From Henricia sp. BOLD:AAB3569 (Eukaryota; Echinodermata; Asteroidea; Spinulosida; Echinasteridae): a stretch of 64,000 nucleotides of DNA. Positions within the stretch are counted from its first letter, which is position 1. Each line of letters begins with the position of its first letter. Of this stretch, positions 317-10,600 are shown piece by piece. The stretch spans positions 124,001 to 188,000 of the forward strand of contig JBBELK010001259.1 in assembly GCA_037783545.1 (NCBI GenBank). The letters run 5' to 3'. The notes beneath the pieces are model-generated. The model did no database searches. It was not told the origin of the DNA and worked only from the letters and a program-made list of their open reading frames with translations. Made by a program: the position numbers and the translations under genes.

Positions 317-2054
317 AGTAGATCAAAACAAATTACACTCCTCACAACGACGGGAGTTGAACCCCAAAAGCCTGATCGGGAGTCCGAGTACACATCCACC
401 GTGCCACCTCAGTCGTCTCTGAAATATTTGTTCGGAACTTATATTTAACCTTAGATTGCAAAGAAACATCTCAAATTGAACCAAGTAGATCAACAAAAAA
501 TTACAATCCCTCACAACGACGGGAATTTTAACCCCAATCGCCTGATCGGGAGTCATAGTACACATCCACCGTGCCACCTCAATCGTCTCTGAAAATAAAT
601 GTGTTCGGAACTTATATTTAAACCTTAGGTTGCAATCAAACATCTCGAATTAAACCAAGTAGATCCAAACAAATGACACTGCTCTCAACGACGGGAGTTG
701 AACCCCAATCGCCTGATCGGGAGTCGGGGTACATATCCACCGTGCCACCTCAGTCGTCTATCAAAAATGTGTTCGGAACTTATATTTAAAACTTAGGTTG
801 CAATGAAACATCTCGAATTGAATCAAGTAGATCCAACAAAATTACACTCCTTACAACGACGGGGGTTGAACTCTAACTGCCTGATCGGGAGTCCGAGTAT
901 ACATCCACGGTGCCACCCCAGTCGTCTCTGAAAATTTGTGTTCGGAACTTATATTTAAACCTTAGGTTGCATATTAACATCTCGAATTGAACAAAGTAGA
1001 TCCAAACAAATTACAATCCCTCATAACGACGGGAATTGAACCCCAATCGCCTGATCGGGAGTCGGAGTACACATCCACCGTGCCACCTCAGTCGTCTCTG
1101 AAAAACGATTTGTTCGGAACTTATATTTAACCTTAGATTGCAATGAAACATCTCGAATTGAACCAAGTAGATCCCAAAAAATTACAGTCCCTCACAACGA
1201 CGGGAATTGAACCCCAAACACCTGATCGGGAGTCAGAGTACATATCCACCGTGCCACCTCAGTCGTATCTGATAACAAATGTGTTCGGAACTTATATTTA
1301 AACCTTAGGTTGCAATGAAACATCTCGAATTGAACCAAGTATATCAACAAAAATTACACTCCTCTCAACGACCTGAGTTGAACTCCAAACGCCTGATCGG
1401 GAGTCGGGGTACATATCCACCGTGCCACCTCAGTCGTCTCTTTAAAAATGTGTTCAGAACTTATATTTAAACGTTAGGTTGCAATAAAACATCTCGAATT
1501 GAACCAAGTAGATCCAAAAAAATTACACTCCTCTCAACGACCTGAGTTGAACTCCAAACGCCTGATCGGGAGTCAGAGTACACATCCACCGTGCCACCTC
1601 AGTCGTCTCTTTAAAAATGTGTTCAGAACTTATATTTAAACCTTAGGTTGCAATAAAACATCTCGAATTGAACCAAGTAGATCCAAAACAATTAGACTCC
1701 TCACAACGACGGGAGTTGAACCCCAATCGCCTGATCGGGAGTCAGAGTACACATCCACGGTGCCATCTCAGTCGTCTCAACAAAAAAAAATGTGTTCGGA
1801 ACTTATATTTAAACCTTAGGTTGCAATGAAACATCTCGAATTGAACCAAGTAGATCCAAAAAAATTACACTCCTCTCAACGACGGGAGTTGAACTCCAAA
1901 CGCCTGATCGGGAGTCAGAGTACACATCCACGGTGCCACCTCAGTCGTATCTGAAAACAAATGGGTTCGGAACTTATATTTAAACCTTAGGTTGCAATTT
2001 AACGTCTGGAATTGAACAAAGTAGATCCAAACAAATTACAATCCCTCACAACGA
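317..2054 (-). repeat. Satellite A array, part I (about 170-bp units)
   Basis: About ten tandem units. The anchor 'caacga' occurs at 345, 514, 686, 854, 1024, 1195, 1366, 1535, 1704, 1877 and 2049, giving periods of 168-173 bp. Units differ by substitutions and by the length of an A-run near 'tctgaaaaaa'. On the minus strand each unit contains a tRNA-like segment with A-box and B-box-like motifs (see 14479-14550 for a clean example). The rest of the unit is AT-rich ('cttatatttaaaccttagg'). The array stops at 2054, where the Penelope-like element begins. Short reading frames here are translations of the tRNA-like repeat and are not genes. Confidence 0.93.
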
Positions 2055-2340
2055 GTAAATAGGGGGTTGGTGGCGTTCTCCCATTCAGAGACACATGCGT
2101 TCCGGTTGACTTGTTTTGATTGTTTGAAATAAAATATATTATATAATATTTTTTTTTTTCACAGTTTTATTTGTATCCAGTTTGTACCGTTATACTGGGT
2201 TTTGTTTGTCATTGTTGGTATGGGAATGGGGTGTGGGTGGGTTTTTGCGAGTAAAAGAACGTTTTTCAGTTCCTTTGGATTAAGCAGGAGCTAGCTTTCT
2301 AGGCTTCCGTATGCCCTTCATCAGCTGCGGGTTGGATTCG
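2055..2340 (-). repeat. PLE pseudo-LTR P1 (3' copy)
   Basis: Matches P2-P5 along its length: 'ggttggtggcgttctcccat' near the end, the AT-rich 'aaataaaatatatta' segment, 'gaacgtttttcagttcct', and a hammerhead ribozyme motif. It is clearly more diverged from P2-P5 than those are from each other; for example it has a long T-run at 2150-2159 and other substitutions. It follows the RT stop codon in the sense direction and so is the element's 3' repeat. Confidence 0.8.
2284..2328 (-). ncRNA. Hammerhead ribozyme in P1
   Basis: Minus-strand 45-nt motif. Stem I is GCAG (2328-2325) with CUGC (2287-2284). The conserved core CUGAUGA is at 2324-2318. Stem II is GGGC/GCCU with one G-U pair and an A-A opposition next to the core. 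The GAA of the core follows, then stem III AGC-UA-GCU with a very short loop. The predicted cleavage triplet is CUC, placing the cut between 2288 and 2287. PLE pseudo-LTRs are known to encode hammerhead motifs with a minimal stem III. Compared with P4, stem I changes from GCAA/UUGC to GCAG/CUGC, a compensated pair change that supports the fold. Activity is inferred. Confidence 0.75.
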
Positions 2341-2395
2341 GGAGAAGCCGGGTGACTCGCTTTTTGTTTCCTTGAGCGGAAAGATCCAGCTTTAT

Positions 2396-4689
2396 TTATG
2401 AGGTTATTTGTTCTTCAAGCAGTGAGATAAGGATGTTTAAGGTTTCATCCGGTTCCTGGCTGTTTTCGGCGTAACCTGAATCTGATAGTGGTGGGGGGAG
2501 CCGTTTTCTGTTGTTGGGTAATTTGGCTCGGATCAGTTTTTGTTTTAGGTTTTCCGCTTTTTTGAAAGCAATGAGTGGTGGTTTAGGAAATATTTCCTTT
2601 AGTGGTTCAGAGCTTTCGATTAGGTGCCAGTGTTTGTTTATTGCTTTTTTCAGTTTGTAGTTGTTTATTGCTGGATTGTAGGTTGTGGAGAAAATGAGTG
2701 GGGTTTGCTTTGTTTCGTTTTCCCTTTGTTTGTTGATAAGGTTGGTCCTTCCGGTATGTTGTACCTTTGATGTTGCCGCTTGGATTTCTTCCTCTAGGAG
2801 TAAGTTTCTCTGAGAAATTTTGGACTTTGTTTAGGTAGTTGTTTTCGTTGTTTGTGTTCCTTGCGTATCCGAGGGTTTCTCCGTATATGAATGCTTTGAA
2901 CACGTGGGTTGGGTGGGATGATGTTTTGTTGAGATATTGGTATGTTTCCGTAGGTTTCGTATAGACTTTTGTGTCTAGGATGCCTGATTTACGGAAGCGT
3001 TCTCCTTTGAAGATGGTTAAGTCCAGGGGCCAATTTCATAGAGCTGCTTAAGCATGAAAAATTGCTTAAGCATGAAAAACTTTGCTTGATAAAATGAGGT
3101 TACCGGCAAAAATTTCATGAGATTGTCATGGTAATGAAACAGTCCTCTAACACTGGTCATATGCTACTTCTATCACATAAGGATTTCACTGGTAACGCTC
3201 TCTACTAGGCAAGTGTTTTCTGTGCTTAAGCAAATTGTTGTGCTTAAACACCTCTATGAAATTGGGCCCAGGTAGTTGATTGAGGTTTCTGAAGCCTCGT
3301 ATGTGAATTTGAGGGTTGGGTGCATTTGGTTCATTGTTTCGATGAGTTTTTGGAAATCGTTAATTTTTCCGTCATAGATAACGAGTATGTCATCTCTGTA
3401 GCGCCACCATGTTAGGATATTTTTGGCATCTTTTAGGATTGTTTTCTCCAGTTCATGTAGGGTTATGTCGCAGATTTCAGGGCTTGAAATGGAGCCCATT
3501 GCGCAACCGATTTTTTGGAGGTAGAATTTGTTCCCAAATTGGAAACAGTTTCGGACAAGGATTAATTCCAGAAGTCTCCGGATGTATGTGGTTGGTGGTT
3601 TGGTAACGGCATATTTGTGGTTGGATCGGTTCAAGGTATTGCAGACGCAGTTTATTGCTTCTGTTTGTCTGACGTTTGTGTACATAGATATCACGTCGAT
3701 ACTGGTTATGAGGATATTTTCTGAAAATTGTTTGCCTTCCAATTTACGCAAAATGTCTGCTGTGTCGCGGACATATGTTGGTTGCGTAGTTACGATTGGG
3801 AGAAGGAAATAGTCGATATATTCAGATATCCTGGTTGTGGGGCTTTTACAACCACTGATTATTGGTCTTCCAACAAAGGGTTCCTCCGCGGGTGGGGTTT
3901 TATGTATTTTCGGGAGGAAGTACATGGTTGGGCATTCGCAATTTTGTGGTAGTGGTTTTAGGTATTCGAGCGTGGGTTCGTCTATGTAATTGTTTCTCAT
4001 TTCCGTCAGTACGTTTTGAACCAGGGTTATTGTTTGGGGAGTTACGGTATGTCATGGTCCAATTTAGAGTAATGTATGGAGTCAAGGTGTTTGTTTCCCA
4101 CTTTTAGGTAGTCGGTTCGGTTCATAATGCAGATACCTCTTCCCTTGTCATAGGGTTTGATCACGATTTCTTCGTTTTTCTTAAGGTTCGTTATTGCGGC
4201 TAGTTCTGGTTTGGTCATGTTTGTTGACCGATTTTGTAGTCGGATATGGGCAGTTTCATACTTTGTGGTAGTAACTTTGTGGCTTCCAGATAGGATTCCA
4301 GCGTTGTGCTGGGGGTAGTTGTTATTGGTTGCCATTTTGATGGTGGTTTAAATGGGTGTGCTCGGGATTGTTTTTTGTGCATTAGAAATGACACTCTCAT
4401 TCTTCGGGTGAAAGTTTTGAAATCGCTCAGTATGGATTTTCGTGTTGGTTTAGCAGGTGTAGGTACGAAATTCAATCCTTTGCCCAATGCTATTTTTTCA
4501 ATTTCTGAAAGTTTGGTTTTGGACAGGTTGGTTATGAATTGTTCGCAATTTTCTGCTAAGGATCGTTTGTGTACCCCTTGGGCGTTTGTTTCTTTGGTTC
4601 TACATCCATATGAAAACCGTTTTGATTTTGATTGGGATAGTGATCTCTTTTGTTTTTTTTACATTTTTGTCTAATTTCCTTTTGGCCAT
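2396..4689 (-). pseudogene. PLE reverse transcriptase, frameshifted, no GIY-YIG domain
   Basis: Minus-strand RT of the Penelope-like type, with a likely ATG at 4689-4687 and stop TAA at 2398-2396. Signature motifs in order: an N-terminal GLNFVPTP block (about 4481-4458), IVIKPYDKG (about 4175-4149), FLPKIHK, RPIISGC, SIDVISMYTNV, AMGS..SP, the catalytic YRDD (3400-3389; YxDD in the family), then NYLD, TKVYTKPTETY, and a C-terminal FSTTYNP...LIRAKL block. Reading frame changes occur at a T-run near 4652-4660, between 4215 and 4260, near 4045, and near 2795-2808. A MITE interrupts NYLD. Repaired length would be about 680 codons. The protein ends about 40 residues after LIRAKL. No Cys-rich region or GIY-YIG endonuclease follows, although most animal PLEs carry one there. 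It is either an EN-lacking lineage or a truncation. Confidence 0.9.
3028..3267. mobile_element. 240-bp MITE nested in the PLE RT
   Basis: Terminal inverted repeats of about 28 bp: the left end begins 'ggccaatttcatagagctgc', and the complement of the right end begins 'gcccaatttcatagaggtgt'. The flanks carry a candidate 5-bp duplication CCAGG (3023-3027 and 3268-3272). Removing the element plus one CCAGG restores the NYLD codons of the RT, so the insertion is precise and younger than the PLE. Inside, 'ttgcttaagcatgaaaaa' is partly repeated. There is no coding capacity, so it is a non-autonomous DNA transposon. I cannot assign the superfamily with certainty. Confidence 0.85.
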
Positions 4690-4826
4690 GACCTTTGTTT
4701 TATTTGGTGACGTTATATTTCGGGTGGTAGTATAACGTTTTATTTATTTAGGTGTATAGGCATACAGAAATCTCTTTTTGGAAATTGTGGTGGTCCTGAA
4801 AAGGACCGTTGGTTTTGTTTTATTTG

Positions 4827-5468
4827 TTACTGATCACTGTGCTTTCTTTTTTTGCCTCTGGTTGGTCCACTCGTGAAGAAGGTGTAAAGCTGTTGTGCCG
4901 TTTTGTGGTCTGAGTCTGGGAAGTTGGCGATCGTTTCTTGAGCTGTTCGGTGTGCTGCGGTGACTTTGTCGTCGATATTCTCCAGTTGTTTTTGATATTC
5001 CCTGAGTGTTAGTTCTGCCAACCGGAGTGATGCTTTCCTCTGTAGGTTCTCGAAACGTTCTTTGTAGGTTTCTGAGAATATGAGGGGTTTTGGTTGTTTC
5101 GGTGGCTTTATTTTGATTGTCAGGTAGGGTGGTGCTTGTCCGTCTGATTTACCCTTTGAGAAGAATCTGATTTGTTTAGTGATATGTGTTTTGGCGGTTT
5201 TTATGTTGGATACGTCCTCCGCCAAAAATTTCACTAGTTTGAAACTCTCTTCTGATAGACGGTGTCGCGGTTGTGTGCTGGAGGTTGATGGGCCTGGAGA
5301 GTTGTCAGACTCGCAGGTTAGCTGGAGGAGATCCTCGTCGAAGATCGAGTCGTCCAGGTTTCCTTGCCCGCAGGGGATGCTTGAAACGGATGGCGTTGGG
5401 CTCGGTGGTGATGACGGCAGTTGTTCTTGCTTGGGCTTGCTTCTCTTGGTTTTGCTGAGTTTTGACAT
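4827..5468 (-). CDS. PLE ORF1, predicted coiled-coil basic protein
   Basis: An intact minus-strand ORF of 213 codons. I take the ATG at 5468-5466 because it lies 9 bp inside the end of pseudo-LTR P2; the frame stays open further upstream, but only through repeat sequence. The N-terminus is Lys-rich (MSKLSKTKRSKPKQEQ), then Ser/Pro-rich with an acidic patch (DDSIFDEDLLQL). Residues about 125-185 are charged and look helical or coiled-coil (YKERFENLQRKASLRLAEL, then EYQKQLENIDDKV). The C-terminus is basic (RGKKRKHSDQ), possibly a nuclear signal. The stop is about 138 bp before the RT ATG on the same strand. I recognise no enzyme domain. By position it resembles the accessory first ORF of some retroelements, perhaps an RNA-binding or assembly protein; that role is inference. 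It is intact although the RT is broken. Confidence 0.6.
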   Translation of the reverse strand: MSKLSKTKRSKPKQEQLPSSPPSPTPSVSSIPCGQGNLDDSIFDEDLLQLTCESDNSPGPSTSSTQPRHRLSEESFKLVKFLAEDVSNIKTAKTHITKQIRFFSKGKSDGQAPPYLTIKIKPPKQPKPLIFSETYKERFENLQRKASLRLAELTLREYQKQLENIDDKVTAAHRTAQETIANFPDSDHKTAQQLYTFFTSGPTRGKKRKHSDQ

Positions 5469-5476
5469 TTTGTCAA

Positions 5477-5700
5477 GTAAAGAGGGGGTTGGTGGCGTTC
5501 TCCCATTCAGAGACACATGCGTTCCGGTTGACTTGTTTTGATTGTTTGAAATAAAATATATTATTTTATTCCAAAGTTTATTTGTATCCAATTTGTACCG
5601 TTTTTGCTGGCTTTATTGTACATTGGTGGTGTGGGAGAGTTTCCCCGGTTTTTGGTTGTGCGAGTAAAATAACGTTTTTCAGTTCCTTTAGGTTTAGCAA
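5477..5700 (-). repeat. PLE pseudo-LTR P2 (truncated tandem copy)
   Basis: A 224-bp copy of the pseudo-LTR body from 'gtaaagaggggg' to 'aggtttagcaa'. In the sense direction it begins with TTGCTAAACC and lacks everything 5' of that, including the hammerhead. That start coincides with the base after the predicted ribozyme cleavage site in P4. It lies immediately upstream of ORF1 in the sense direction, so the promoter or leader should be in P2-P4. Confidence 0.85.
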
Positions 5701-5928
5701 TTAAAGAGCGGGTTGGTAGCGTTCTCCCATCCAGAGACACATGCGTTCCGGTTGACTTGTTTTGATTGTTTGAAATAAAATATATTATTTTATTCCAAAG
5801 TTTATTTGTATCCAATTTGTACCGTTTTTGCTGGCTTTATTGTACATTGGTGGTGTGGGAGAGTTTCCGGCCCCGGTTTTTGGTTGTGCGAGTAAAAGAA
5901 CGTTTTTCAGTTCCTTTAGGTTTAGCAA
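5701..5928 (-). repeat. PLE pseudo-LTR P3 (truncated tandem copy)
   Basis: A second tandem copy of 228 bp with the same sense-strand start (TTGCTAAACC) as P2. It is nearly identical to P2, with small differences ('gagcggg' for 'gaggggg', an added 'ggcc' at about 5869, 'ccatcc' for 'ccattc'). Its TTGC start is joined to the end of P4 by 'ctctttaa'. Confidence 0.85.
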
Positions 5929-6224
5929 TTAAAGAGGGGGTTGGTAGCGTTCTCCCATTCAGAGACACATGCGTTCCGGTTGACTTGTTTTGATTGTTTG
6001 AAATAAAATATATTATTTTATTCCAAAGTTTATTTGTATCCAATTTGTACCGTTTTTGCTGGGTTTATTGTACATTGGTGGTGTGGGAGAGTTTCCCCGG
6101 TTTTTGGTTGTGCGATTAAAAGAACGTTTTTCAGTTCCTTTAGGTTTAGCAAGAGCTAGCTTTCTGGGCTTCCGTCTGCCCTTCATCAGTTGCGGGTGGA
6201 TTCAAAATGAATCGGATTACCTCG
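5929..6224 (-). repeat. PLE pseudo-LTR P4 (full-length, with ribozyme)
   Basis: The most 5' of the three tandem repeats in the sense direction. It contains the same body as P2 and P3 plus a further 72 bp holding the hammerhead and 'gtggattcaaaatgaatcgg'. The whole of it is repeated in inverted orientation at 7387-7686 (P5). Confidence 0.85.
6149..6193 (-). ncRNA. Hammerhead ribozyme in P4
   Basis: Minus-strand 45-nt motif. Stem I is GCAA (6193-6190) with UUGC (6152-6149). The core CUGAUGA is at 6189-6183. Stem II is GGGC/GCCC around an 8-nt loop, flanked by an A-A opposition. The core GAA is followed by stem III AGC-UA-GCU and cleavage triplet CUC. The predicted cut lies between 6153 and 6152, leaving a 5' end UUGCUAAACC. 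That is the sequence with which P2 and P3 begin. All canonical core bases are present; catalysis is inferred. Confidence 0.8.
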
Positions 6225-7386
6225 AGTATTCCGGGTGTTTAGCACGAGAAATACCGAATCTTCAGGTTGCATCGTTCTCAGATCCGAGATACCCACGGGT
6301 TTCCACCACTGACTTGACCATCTCGTATCCACCCCATTGGAGTAAACGTGTACACAAAATCCCCAAAATATAAACTGTGGAAATAAAAAATAAACAAAAT
6401 AACACAACACATCGGTAAAACTCCAACTATAAAGGACCACAACACACTGCATTTTACTCGATTGTAACTGCAAATACCCGGAAAAGGTCTTTTTCCACAA
6501 AAAAGAAACACAATCCGATGATAAATTTCATCCTTTGGATCAGGATTTTCCTCGCTGCTGAACACGAACGCTCATTGAACAACGGAACCAACCCATGGGA
6601 GGTCAGGCAGAGCAGGATGCATCCACAACGCATAAAATAGCCCAACCAGGCCATTTAACTGCAACAATGACGTGATCAAAACGCACGGGGCGTATCAAGC
6701 CAGCAAAGTGTCTGAACTTAACTGTATACACAACAGACACATCACCAACTTGATATGACAGCCCTTATACCAACTAAAAGCAGAAAACGCGCAAAAGAAG
6801 CGCAAAAAATAGATCTTTAAATTTAAAACATGAAACAAACACCTTGACCAAAACTATACCCAATATATGTCAAGGCTAAACAAAACTCAAATAAACTAAG
6901 AGAGCACTAAACTTCGAAAAAAGCAATGGATGCGAACGCAAACTGAAAAACCCCAACGAGAAACAACCTGTGAACAACTACCAACCTATCCAAAGCAAAT
7001 CTTTCAGAAACTGAAAAATATACCGCTTTGGGTAAACTACTAAGTTTTTGTTCCGACAATTGCTAAAACATTGGGAAAATCTACGAGCGGTAGACAACTT
7101 TAAAACACCCAAAAATGAGAGTGGCCAATATGTTAAACACGCAAAAATATTTTCTAACACCAAACGGCGACAAAAAGAAAGCATGCCGGCACACGCCTAA
7201 ATAAGCCAACGGATATCAAAATAATGAAAGGACACTTTAAAATAACAAAACGCCACTCAGTGTTAATACCCAAACAATACCAGTAACAAACCAGAACTAT
7301 AAAAAGAGCAGTCACTGAACACAAAACAATCCTGATCTAACTAAACAAAAAAGCTGGTTCTATCGCTCTCAAGATTGACCCAAATG
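6225..7386. other. Spacer between inverted pseudo-LTRs
   Basis: About 1.16 kb of AT-rich, A-biased (plus strand) sequence flanked by the inverted copies P4 and P5. Only short, unconvincing reading frames are present. I recognise no transposon termini, RNA gene or protein motif. It could be non-coding 5' sequence of a second, oppositely oriented PLE copy, or captured host DNA. Confidence 0.45.
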
Positions 7387-7686
7387 CGAGGTAATCCGAT
7401 TCATTTTGAATCCACCCGCAACTGCATGATGAAGGGCAGACGGAAGCCCAGAAAGCTAGCTCTTGCTAAACCTAAAGGAACTGAAAAACGTTCTTTTACT
7501 CGCACAACCAAAAACCGGGGAAACTCTCCCACACCACCAATGTGCAATAACCCCAGCAAAAACGGTACAAATTGGATACAAATAAACTTTGGAATAAAAT
7601 AATATATTTTATTTCAAACAATCAAAACAAGTCAACCGGAACGCATGTGTCTCTGAATGGGAGAACGCCACCAACCCCCTCTTTAC
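7387..7686 (+). repeat. PLE pseudo-LTR P5 (inverted copy)
   Basis: Reverse complement of P4 over about 300 bp, forming the right end of the element. The ribozyme at 7418-7466 keeps stems I-III but has a 4-base insertion that breaks the CUGAUGA core ('actgcatgatgaa'). Its outer end 'ctctttac' adjoins satellite A at 7687. Confidence 0.85.
7418..7466 (+). pseudogene. Disrupted hammerhead ribozyme in P5
   Basis: Same stems as the P4 ribozyme (GCAA 7418-7421, UUGC 7463-7466, GGGC/GCCC, AGC/GCT). A 4-bp insertion splits the invariant core, reading CTGCATGATGA in place of CTGATGA. It is predicted to be inactive. Confidence 0.75.
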
Positions 7687-10600
7687 TGTCTCTTTAAAAA
7701 TGTGTTCAGAACTTATATTTAAACCTTAGGTTGCAATAAAAAAATATCGAATTAGATTAAGTAGATCCAACAAAATTACACTCCTCACAACGACGGGAGT
7801 TGCACCCCAATCGCCTGATCGGGAGTCAGAGTACACATCTACGGTGCCACCTCAGTCGTCTCTGAAAAAAATGATCGCCTGATCGGGAGTCAGGGTACAC
7901 ATCCACCGTGCCACCTCAGTCGTTTCTGAAACAAAATGTATTCGGAACTTATATTTAAATCTTAGGTTGCAATGAAACATCTCGAATTAAACCAAGTAGA
8001 TCCAAACAAATTAAATCCTCGCAACGACGGGATTTGAACCGCAATCGCCTGATCGGGAGTCAGGGTACACATCCACGGTGCCACCTCAGACGTCTCTGAA
8101 AAAAATGGGTTCGGAACTTATATTTAAACCTTAGGTTGCAATGAAACATCTGGAATTGAACCAAGTAGAACCAAAACAATTACACTCCTCACAACGACGG
8201 GAGTTGAACCCCAATTGCCTGATCTGGAGTCAGGGTACACATCCACGGTGCCACATCATTCGTCTCTGTAAAAAATGGGTTCGGAACTTATATTTAAACC
8301 TTAGGTTGCAATTAAACATCTCGAATTGAACCAAGTAGATCCAAAAAAATTACACTCCTCACAACGACGGGAGTTGAACTCCAAACGCCTGATCGGGAGT
8401 CAGAGTACACATCCACCGTGCCACCTCAGTCGTCTCTGAAAAAAAATGTATTCGGAACTTATATTTAAATCTTAGGTTGCAATGAAACATCTCGAATTGA
8501 ACCAAGTAGATCCCAAAAAAGTACACTCCTCACAACGACGGAAGTTGAACCCCAATCGCCTGATCGGGAGTCACAGTACTACACATCCACGGTGCTGCAC
8601 CTCAGTCGTCTCTGAAAACAAAATGTGTTCGGAACTTATTTTTTGCAATGAAACATCTCGAATTGAATCAAGTAGATCCAACAAAATTACACTCCTCACA
8701 ACGACGGGGGTTAAACTCCAAATGCCTGATCGGGAGTCAGAGTACACGCCCACGGTGCCACCTCAGTCGTCCCTGAAAATGTGTGTTTGGAACTTATATT
8801 TAAACCTTAGGTTGCAATAAAAAAATCTCGAATTGAACCAAGTAGATCAACAAAATTACACTGCTCTCAACGACGGGAGTTGAACCCCAATCGCCTGATC
8901 GGGAGTCAGAGTACACATCCAACGTGCCACCTCAATCGTCTCTGAAAAAAAATGGGTTCAGAACTTATATTTAAACCTTAGGTTGCAATAAAACATCTCG
9001 AATTGAACCAAGTATATCCATAACAAAAAAAATTACGCTCCTCACAACGACGGGGGTTGAACTCCAAATGCCTGATCGGGAGTCGGGGTACATATCCACC
9101 GTGCCGTCTATCAAAAAATGTGTTCGGAACTTATATTTAAAACTTAGGTTGCAATGAAACATCTCGAATTGAATCAAGTAGATCCCAAAAAATTACACTC
9201 CTCACAACGACGGGGGTTGAACTCTAACTGCCTGATCGGGAGTCAGAGTATACATCCACGGTGCCACCTCAGTCGTCTCTGAAAATTTGTGTTCGGAACT
9301 TATATTTAAACCTTGGGTTGCAATATAAAACAATCTCGAATTGAACCAAGTAGATCAAAAAAAATTACACTCCTCACAACTACGGGAGTTGAACCCCAAT
9401 CGCCTGATCTGGAGTCAGAGTACACATCCACCGTGCCAACTCAGTCGTCTCTGAAAAAAAATGTATTCGGAACTTATATTTAAATCTTAGGTTGCAATGA
9501 AACATCTCGATTTGAACCAAGTAGATCCAAACAAATTAAATCCTCGCAACGACGGGAATTGAACCGCAATCGCCTGATCGGGAGTCAGGGTACACATCCA
9601 CGGTGCCACCTCAGACGTCTCTGAAAAAAATGTGTTCGGAACTTATATTTAAACCTTAGGTTGCAATGAAACATCTGGAATTGAACCAAGTAGAACCAAA
9701 ACAATTACACTCCTCACAACGACGGGAGTTGAACCCCAATTGCCTGATCTGGAGTCAGGGTACACATCCACGGTGCCACATCATTCGTCTCTGTAAAAAA
9801 TGGGTTCGGAACTTATATTTAAACCTTAGGTTGCAATTAAACATCTCGAATTGAACCAAGTAGATCCAAAAAAATTACACTCCTCACAACGACGGGAGTT
9901 GAACTCCAAACGCCTGATCGGGAGTCAGAGTACACATCCACCGTGCCACCTCAGTCGTCTCTGAAAAAAAATGTATTCGGAACTTATATTTAAATCTTAG
10001 GTTGCAATGAAACATCTCGAATTGAACCAAGTAGATCCCAAAAAAAGTACACTCCTCACAACGACGGAAGTCACAGTACTACACATCCACGGTGCTGCAC
10101 CTCAGTCGTCTCTGAAAACAACATGTGTTCGGAACTTATATTTAAACCTTAGGTTGCAATGAAACATCTCGAATTGAATCAAGTAGATCCAACAAAATTA
10201 CACTCCTCACAACGACGGGGGTTAAACTCCAAATGCCTGATCGGGAGTCAGAGTACACGCCCACGGTGCCACCTCAGTCGTCCCTGAAAATGTGTGTTTG
10301 GAACTTATATTTAAACCTTAGGTTGCAATAAAAAAATCTCGAATTGAACCAAGTAGATCAACAAAATTACACTGCTCTCAACGACGGGAGTTGAACCCCA
10401 ATCGCCTGATCGGGAGTCAGAGTACACATCCAACGTGCCACCTCAATCGTCTCTGAAAAAAAATGGGTTCAGAACTTATATTTAAACCTTAGGTTGCAAT
10501 AAAACATCTCGAATTGAACCAAGTAGATCCCAAAAAATTACACTCCTCACAACGACGGGGGTTGAACTCTAACTGCCTGATCGGGAGTCAGAGTACACAT

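Follow-up and report, generated by a model that had tools for sequence, protein, structure and literature searches.

Minimal type I hammerhead ribozymes (HHRs) occur in the pseudo-LTRs (pLTRs) of Penelope-like elements (PLEs) (Cervera and de la Pena 2014; Lunse 2017, as cited in the accessible part of PMC7761336). The same part of that review describes PLE HHRs as minimal and possibly dimer-acting, and calls their role in these elements unknown. In Poseidon PAc of Anolis, insertion in vitro is unaffected by mutations of the HHR, and none of the RNA-seq reads has an end at the HHR site, observations that weigh against a required role for the ribozyme (PMC11167929). The PAc study also indicates that reverse transcription in PLEs can be initiated at an internal position of the RNA (PMC11167929). 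Metazoan and plant retrozymes consist of HHR-defined tandem units of a few hundred bases, which carry the HHR and pass through circular RNA (accessible parts of PMC7229834 and PMC7761336). Bdelloid Penelope elements form partial tandems with direct and inverted pLTRs, 5'-truncated copies, microhomology joints and a palindrome at the pLTR 5' end; in the accessible part of that account no link to an HHR is discussed and the word "hammerhead" occurs 0 times (PMC3846280).

The element described here resembles the PLE-HHR elements in having a reverse transcriptase (RT), tandem pLTRs plus an inverted pLTR, and a minimal HHR whose helix III is nearly absent and which may cleave as a dimer. It differs from those in the accessible part of PMC7761336 in that its HHR lies at the upstream edge of the pLTR and its tandem pLTRs P2 and P3 lack an HHR and start at the predicted cut. 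Like Poseidon PAc it is a pLTR-HHR PLE, but in PAc the cut of the HHR falls within the ORF, 26 bp from its edge, and the internal start of reverse transcription is an observation on PAc (PMC11167929). The likeness to retrozymes lies in putatively HHR-defined tandem units of a few hundred bases; unlike retrozyme units as given in the accessible parts of PMC7229834 and PMC7761336, which each carry an HHR, P2 and P3 carry none. With the bdelloid elements (PMC3846280, accessible part) the locus shares the mixed pLTR orientation, 5'-truncated copies, microhomology at joints and the palindrome. Recurrence of a pLTR joint at the predicted cut would link the ribozyme with transposition in vivo. A literature search, with the key 2014 and 2017 work outside its reach, returned no report of pLTR joints at an HHR site, and priority is not established.

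Layout of the element

The genome searched comprises 740.7 Mb in 2104 contigs, and the window, the whole 64-kb stretch of DNA analysed, is C1259:124001-188000. Positions 2054-7687 form an insertion in a ~170-bp satellite. The tandem pLTRs P4-P3-P2 of the insertion are confirmed, and by its motifs and its architecture the insertion is taken to be a PLE. The minus-strand order is P4, P3, P2, ORF1, a histone-type stem-loop, a broken ORF2 with RT, and P1. The features are as follows.

2054..2332, minus strand: 3' pLTR P1, ~83% identity to P2-P5
2284..2328, minus strand: HHR motif of P1, 41/45 identical to the P4 motif, with GCAG/CUGC as stem I and a predicted cut at 2288/2287
3023..3272, no strand assigned: insert within ORF2 with 58-nt inverted ends
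3254..4000, minus strand: reverse transcriptase part of the broken ORF2, RVT_1 E 1.3e-9
4766..4812, minus strand: histone 3' UTR stem-loop RF00032, 39.7 bits against a gathering score of 34
4827..5468, minus strand: ORF1, without a Pfam family that passes its cut-off score
5478..5700, minus strand: pLTR P2, starting at cleavage +1 and continuing into the ORF1 leader as TTTACTTGACAAAATG
5701..5928 (unit ~5702-5928), minus strand: pLTR P3, starting at cleavage +1 and probably chimeric through crossover between P2 and P4
5929..6224, minus strand: pLTR P4, with 72 nt ahead of the cleavage site and the ending TTTA-A
6149..6193, minus strand: HHR motif of P4, 45 nt, predicted cleavage between 6153 and 6152
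6225..7386, plus strand: degenerate, inverted, 5'-truncated relative running into P5
7387..7687, plus strand: inverted pLTR P5, its HHR disrupted by a 4-nt insertion

P1 to P4 are direct and P5 is inverted, the direct-plus-inverted layout described for Penelope-like elements (accessible part of PMC3846280). Two scanned stretches gave no match to the GIY-YIG endonuclease of canonical PLEs, the broken, stop-bearing C-terminal part lying outside them. No relatives were found in collections of viral and genome contigs.

The RF00032 stem-loop lies 14 nt past the ORF1 stop (4812-4766, minus strand), with a purine-rich stretch downstream, and may let the ORF1 mRNA end as histone mRNAs do, without poly(A). 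No RF00032 match occurs in the inverted relative or in eight related loci of unchecked ORF content, and a literature search returned no paper combining a PLE with a histone stem-loop. Along the pLTR, P1 and P4 are identical at 85/87 positions (7 gap columns) over the last ~87 nt (P1 2054-2147) and at only 63/94 in the middle, a comparison that suggests a constrained or recombining 3' end. The satellite (1-2053 and 7688 onward) resembles a tRNA-derived SINE, with a B-box-like GGTTCAACTCC found by eye on the minus strand.

The hammerhead motif

A sequence-only reading of the window had described an intact 45-nt HHR motif at 6193-6149 and treated P4 as the full-length copy. The motif stands, as the whole core is present and matches a structural descriptor. 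P4 is not unique in carrying it, as P1 (2328-2284) and, broken by 4 nt, P5 carry it too. Around the predicted cut (6153/6152) the minus strand of P4 reads AGAAAGCTAGCTC followed directly by TTGCTAAACC. Both the P4 and P1 motifs hold the complete HHR core, C3UGANGA...GAAA...UH, plus three stems, and a three-stem structural descriptor matches only these two sites in the 64 kb; 150 first-order Markov windows gave 0 matches. Stem I contains a compensatory pair, GCAA/UUGC in P4 and GCAG/CUGC in P1 (A-U to G-C). The two copies agree at 41/45 positions within the HHR and at 16/31 in the 31 nt just upstream.

The motif also recurs across the genome. The initial 30-nt stretch of the pLTR has 456 matches with at most three mismatches; among the 100 of these that were listed, 30/30 extracted loci with the exact 30-mer have an HHR-like sequence upstream at the matched site, with an internal deletion in L049 and alterations in L032 and L033. 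This retention of the upstream HHR counts against the ribozyme-based reading of the joints. In 49 distinct genomic contexts, chosen by similarity to the motif itself, C17 is kept in 46/49, G12 in 48/49, and A.A at 10.1/11.1 in 49/49. HHRs usually have G-C at 10.1/11.1, and the uniform A.A therefore counts against an HHR-based reading. Moreover, the covariance-model check proposed for the motif gave no significant match. Rfam reported no HHR at gathering score in the whole window or in eight loci, and a search narrowed to 101 nt likewise gave none for P4. Its best result for P1 was HH9 at 11.3 bits (E 2.4) against a gathering score of 52, and no Rfam membership is claimed.

Folding of the HHR as a single strand is uninformative (z 0.05 to 0.58), and the monomer minimum is a different fold, not a hammerhead. 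Helix III is the palindrome AGCUAGCU, so that two copies would form an 8-bp helix III common to two cores. When dimers are folded, the double hammerhead is the minimum for P1 (-26.8 kcal/mol) and ties with the minimum for P4 (-27.8 kcal/mol). As modeled, the motif can form the dimeric (double) hammerhead that has been described for PLEs.

Tandem joints and copy ends

P2 and P3 had been said to begin at the bases that follow the cut, without any upstream sequence, and both coordinates and letters hold. Each begins TTGCTAAACC (TTGC...), the base after the predicted cleavage site at 6153/6152; P4 carries GCTAGCTC directly before TTGCTAAACC, and P2 runs on as TTTACTTGACAAAATG into ORF1. The junctions, originally read as "ctctttaa" plus "TTGC", are confirmed as CTCTTTA-A-TTGCTAAACC, with the same extra A in each. 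The junction acceptor is cleavage +1, and the donor end is no more than 1-2 nt away from the point at which P1 and P5 have their outer 3' ends (TTTACT). Neither parent contains the extra A; both have C. A templated source for it (CTCTTAATTGC) was sought and rejected: the sequence occurs at three places, two in a diverged relative and one by chance, and not in a parent.

P2 and P3 probably go back to one event and not to two separate truncations. P3 has G in common with P2 at alignment column 94 and T in common with P4 at column 222, and these are the only 2:2 sites among P2-P5. Judged by these two bases, P3 is probably an unequal-crossover chimera of P2 and P4 that arose from a P4-P2 dimer, and if it is chimeric the two window junctions count as one.

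Similar joints occur elsewhere in the genome. A pattern running from pLTR end to pLTR start, CTCTTTA-N(0-30)-ACTGAAAAACGTT with gaps of 0-30 allowed, matches eight places (seven loci), all with gaps of 14-20, and a control pattern matches 0. Match lengths of 40, 40, 34, 36, 34, 38, 38 and 38 correspond to gaps of 20, 20, 14, 16, 14, 18, 18 and 18. A gap of 18 results when TTTA and one further base are followed by a start at 0, and the pattern could show starts from ~-12 to +18. The exact start is seen in 2/7 loci, the window and C937; the remaining gaps imply starts at -2, +2 and +4. Besides these two loci, joints lie at C107, C146, C181, C797 and C937b. If C107 and C146 are treated as one locus, and the window likewise, six loci lie within 7 of the 31 gap values, a probability of (7/31)^6 = 1.3e-4 that was calculated by hand for a gap range set after seeing the data. 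The joint loci may share ancestry, so the independent events may be fewer than seven.

The C937 joint reads TTTAC/TTGC exactly and is a true tandem. Used as a query, it matches across the joint at no fewer than the same eight places found by the gapped pattern, that is, at least 8, with 40/674 candidates scored. The pattern CTTTAMTTGCTAAACC occurs at four places: the window twice, C937, and C168 by chance. The gapped pattern is blind to joints with other ends or starts, such as the L003 tandem, which starts at +145, and the L039/L048 tandem, which starts at +5 and has a different 3' end. A search for exact starts in which base -1 is not C returned five places, two of them in the window; at the other three the HHR is present with C17 altered, and in two of these A9 is altered as well, so that the window alone is left by that pattern. 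L090 is a chance match.

Insertion 5' ends give a separate view of the same site. From BLAST ends (L001-L070), 48 were compiled by hand, with duplicates merged by eye, and four beside a TIR transposon were dropped. The 44 retained are accurate to a few nt, and L055/L059 and L060 among the loci may be subfamily borders; L074 and L075 yielded no further independent 5' end. In the interval 0 to +10, picked post hoc, lie 5/44, where 0.26 is expected if ends are uniform (P 8.4e-6) or 0.38 from the local rate (P 4.6e-5). These five are the window at 0, L061 (a full-length 1.84-kb copy) at +2 to +4, L067 at +4, the L039/L048 tandem at +5, and L064 at +7 to +10. Widening to +-10 gives 6/44 (P 1.4e-5 uniform, 7.8e-5 local), and leaving out tandem starts gives 3/41 at 0 to +10 (P 0.002). 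Exactly at 0 there is 1/44, the window (P 0.024). The truncation points proposed as a check on the reading thus cluster near the cut, but they are also scattered, with 38/44 beyond +-10. The L069 insertion has its 5' end at -7, upstream of the cleavage site; such a start is impossible from cleaved RNA and argues against an HHR-defined end there. A start-at-+4 pattern matched seven places, and the four examined were three TIR transposon insertions and one altered, uninterrupted HHR copy, none of them a true start.

At the other side, the outer 3' ends of insertions read TTTAC in P1, P5, L062, L065 and L069, and TTTAA in L064. Two patterns for candidate 3' ends at the cleavage site itself (a changed base at +1 or +3) led in 9/10 cases to mutated copies continuing into the pLTR. 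A single copy, L064/L006, ends 3' at the site, as GCTAGCTC followed by TTATTATT, i.e. by TT(ATT)n, in which TT may be target.

Origin of the joints

Both the 5' ends and the tandem joints are concentrated around the predicted cleavage site, although not exactly to the base. The best reading, to which a probability of about 0.5 is given, combines HHR-defined RNA 5' ends with template-jump re-initiation at the TTTAC boundary. The HHR just upstream of the pLTR would cut as a dimer formed by two copies, whether these belong to a single transcript or to two, leaving a downstream RNA that begins UUGC. Reverse transcription would begin at or just beyond the pLTR 3' boundary (UUUAC/U), copy the pLTR to that 5' end, and then jump back to the same boundary on the same or another RNA. 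Copying the pLTR again would give tandems of the form TTTAC/TTGC, with a few bases gained or lost at the jump, and UUG on both sides could aid re-annealing of the cDNA end. In the window, one joint would later have been doubled by unequal crossing-over to P4-P3-P2. An RNA 5' end made by cleavage, together with re-initiation at TTTAC, would explain the donor side, the acceptor side and the pLTR-only units, and the pattern suggests that the ribozyme helps set the start of new copies.

The original proposal, that ribozyme-made 5' ends were copied and joined, is therefore retained in part. In its favor, joints recur at seven loci within ~4 nt, 5' ends are enriched just downstream, the donor is the common TTTAC 3' end, and a dimer fold is possible; against it, the exact start is found in 2/7 loci, and a CTTG microhomology links donor and acceptor. 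Scattered truncations and the lack of a model match, two outcomes named in advance as contrary to the proposal, mean that the strict claim of an exact start fails, and the weaker claim of clustering holds.

The microhomology could by itself generate joints if the pLTR/ORF boundary (TTTA[CTTG]A) and the HHR (CT[CTTG]C) recombined or switched template at CTTG, making cleavage unnecessary. CTTG is present in both parents, the C937 joint is exactly its product, and a microhomology 5' joint also fits L061. A single gap of 18 would be expected, however, and 5/7 loci differ (14, 14, 16, 20, 20), the window joint having A where both parents have C. The 5' ends at +4 and +7 beside unrelated DNA and the L064 3' end would also be left unexplained, and microhomology alone is considered unlikely.

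RNA 5' ends might instead scatter without ribozyme cleavage if Pol II started near the pLTR edge. This would suit 5' ends that range near the site from -7 to about +7 and not at one base, but it accounts neither for the L064 3' end at the site nor for the conservation and covariation of the HHR, and seems rather improbable. Quite unlikely, too, is the spread of one ancestral tandem, by transposition or by amplification of DNA, to several loci that later acquired small indels: the joint gaps take four values, and the C181 tandem lies (by positions only, among the matches listed) at the 3' side of its array, whereas the window tandem lies before ORF1. These differences have to be set against joints that are 95-99% alike to the C937 query, equal gaps in C107 and C146, the commonness of 1.84-kb tandem units in the genome, and the crossover suggested by P3. 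A telomerase-like addition of pLTR repeats by the PLE enzyme, a telomerase relative, in which the cut would set the template 5' boundary at UUGC and the cDNA end GCAA would re-anneal to UUG past the UUUAC start site so that the same template is copied again, is very unlikely.

Other repeats accompany these copies in the genome. A TIR transposon (TGCTACGTTTACACCATGTCC...) adjoining TA/TAA is found in several PLE copies (L085, L087, L088; L021, L022), also at the pLTR start. A 1.84-kb non-autonomous unit, made up of a pLTR, ~1.5 kb and an HHR, forms tandem and head-to-head arrays (L051-L070, C541, C396, C142, C231), and to judge by match positions there may be another family of arrays that repeats every ~2.8 kb (C758, C181, C93).
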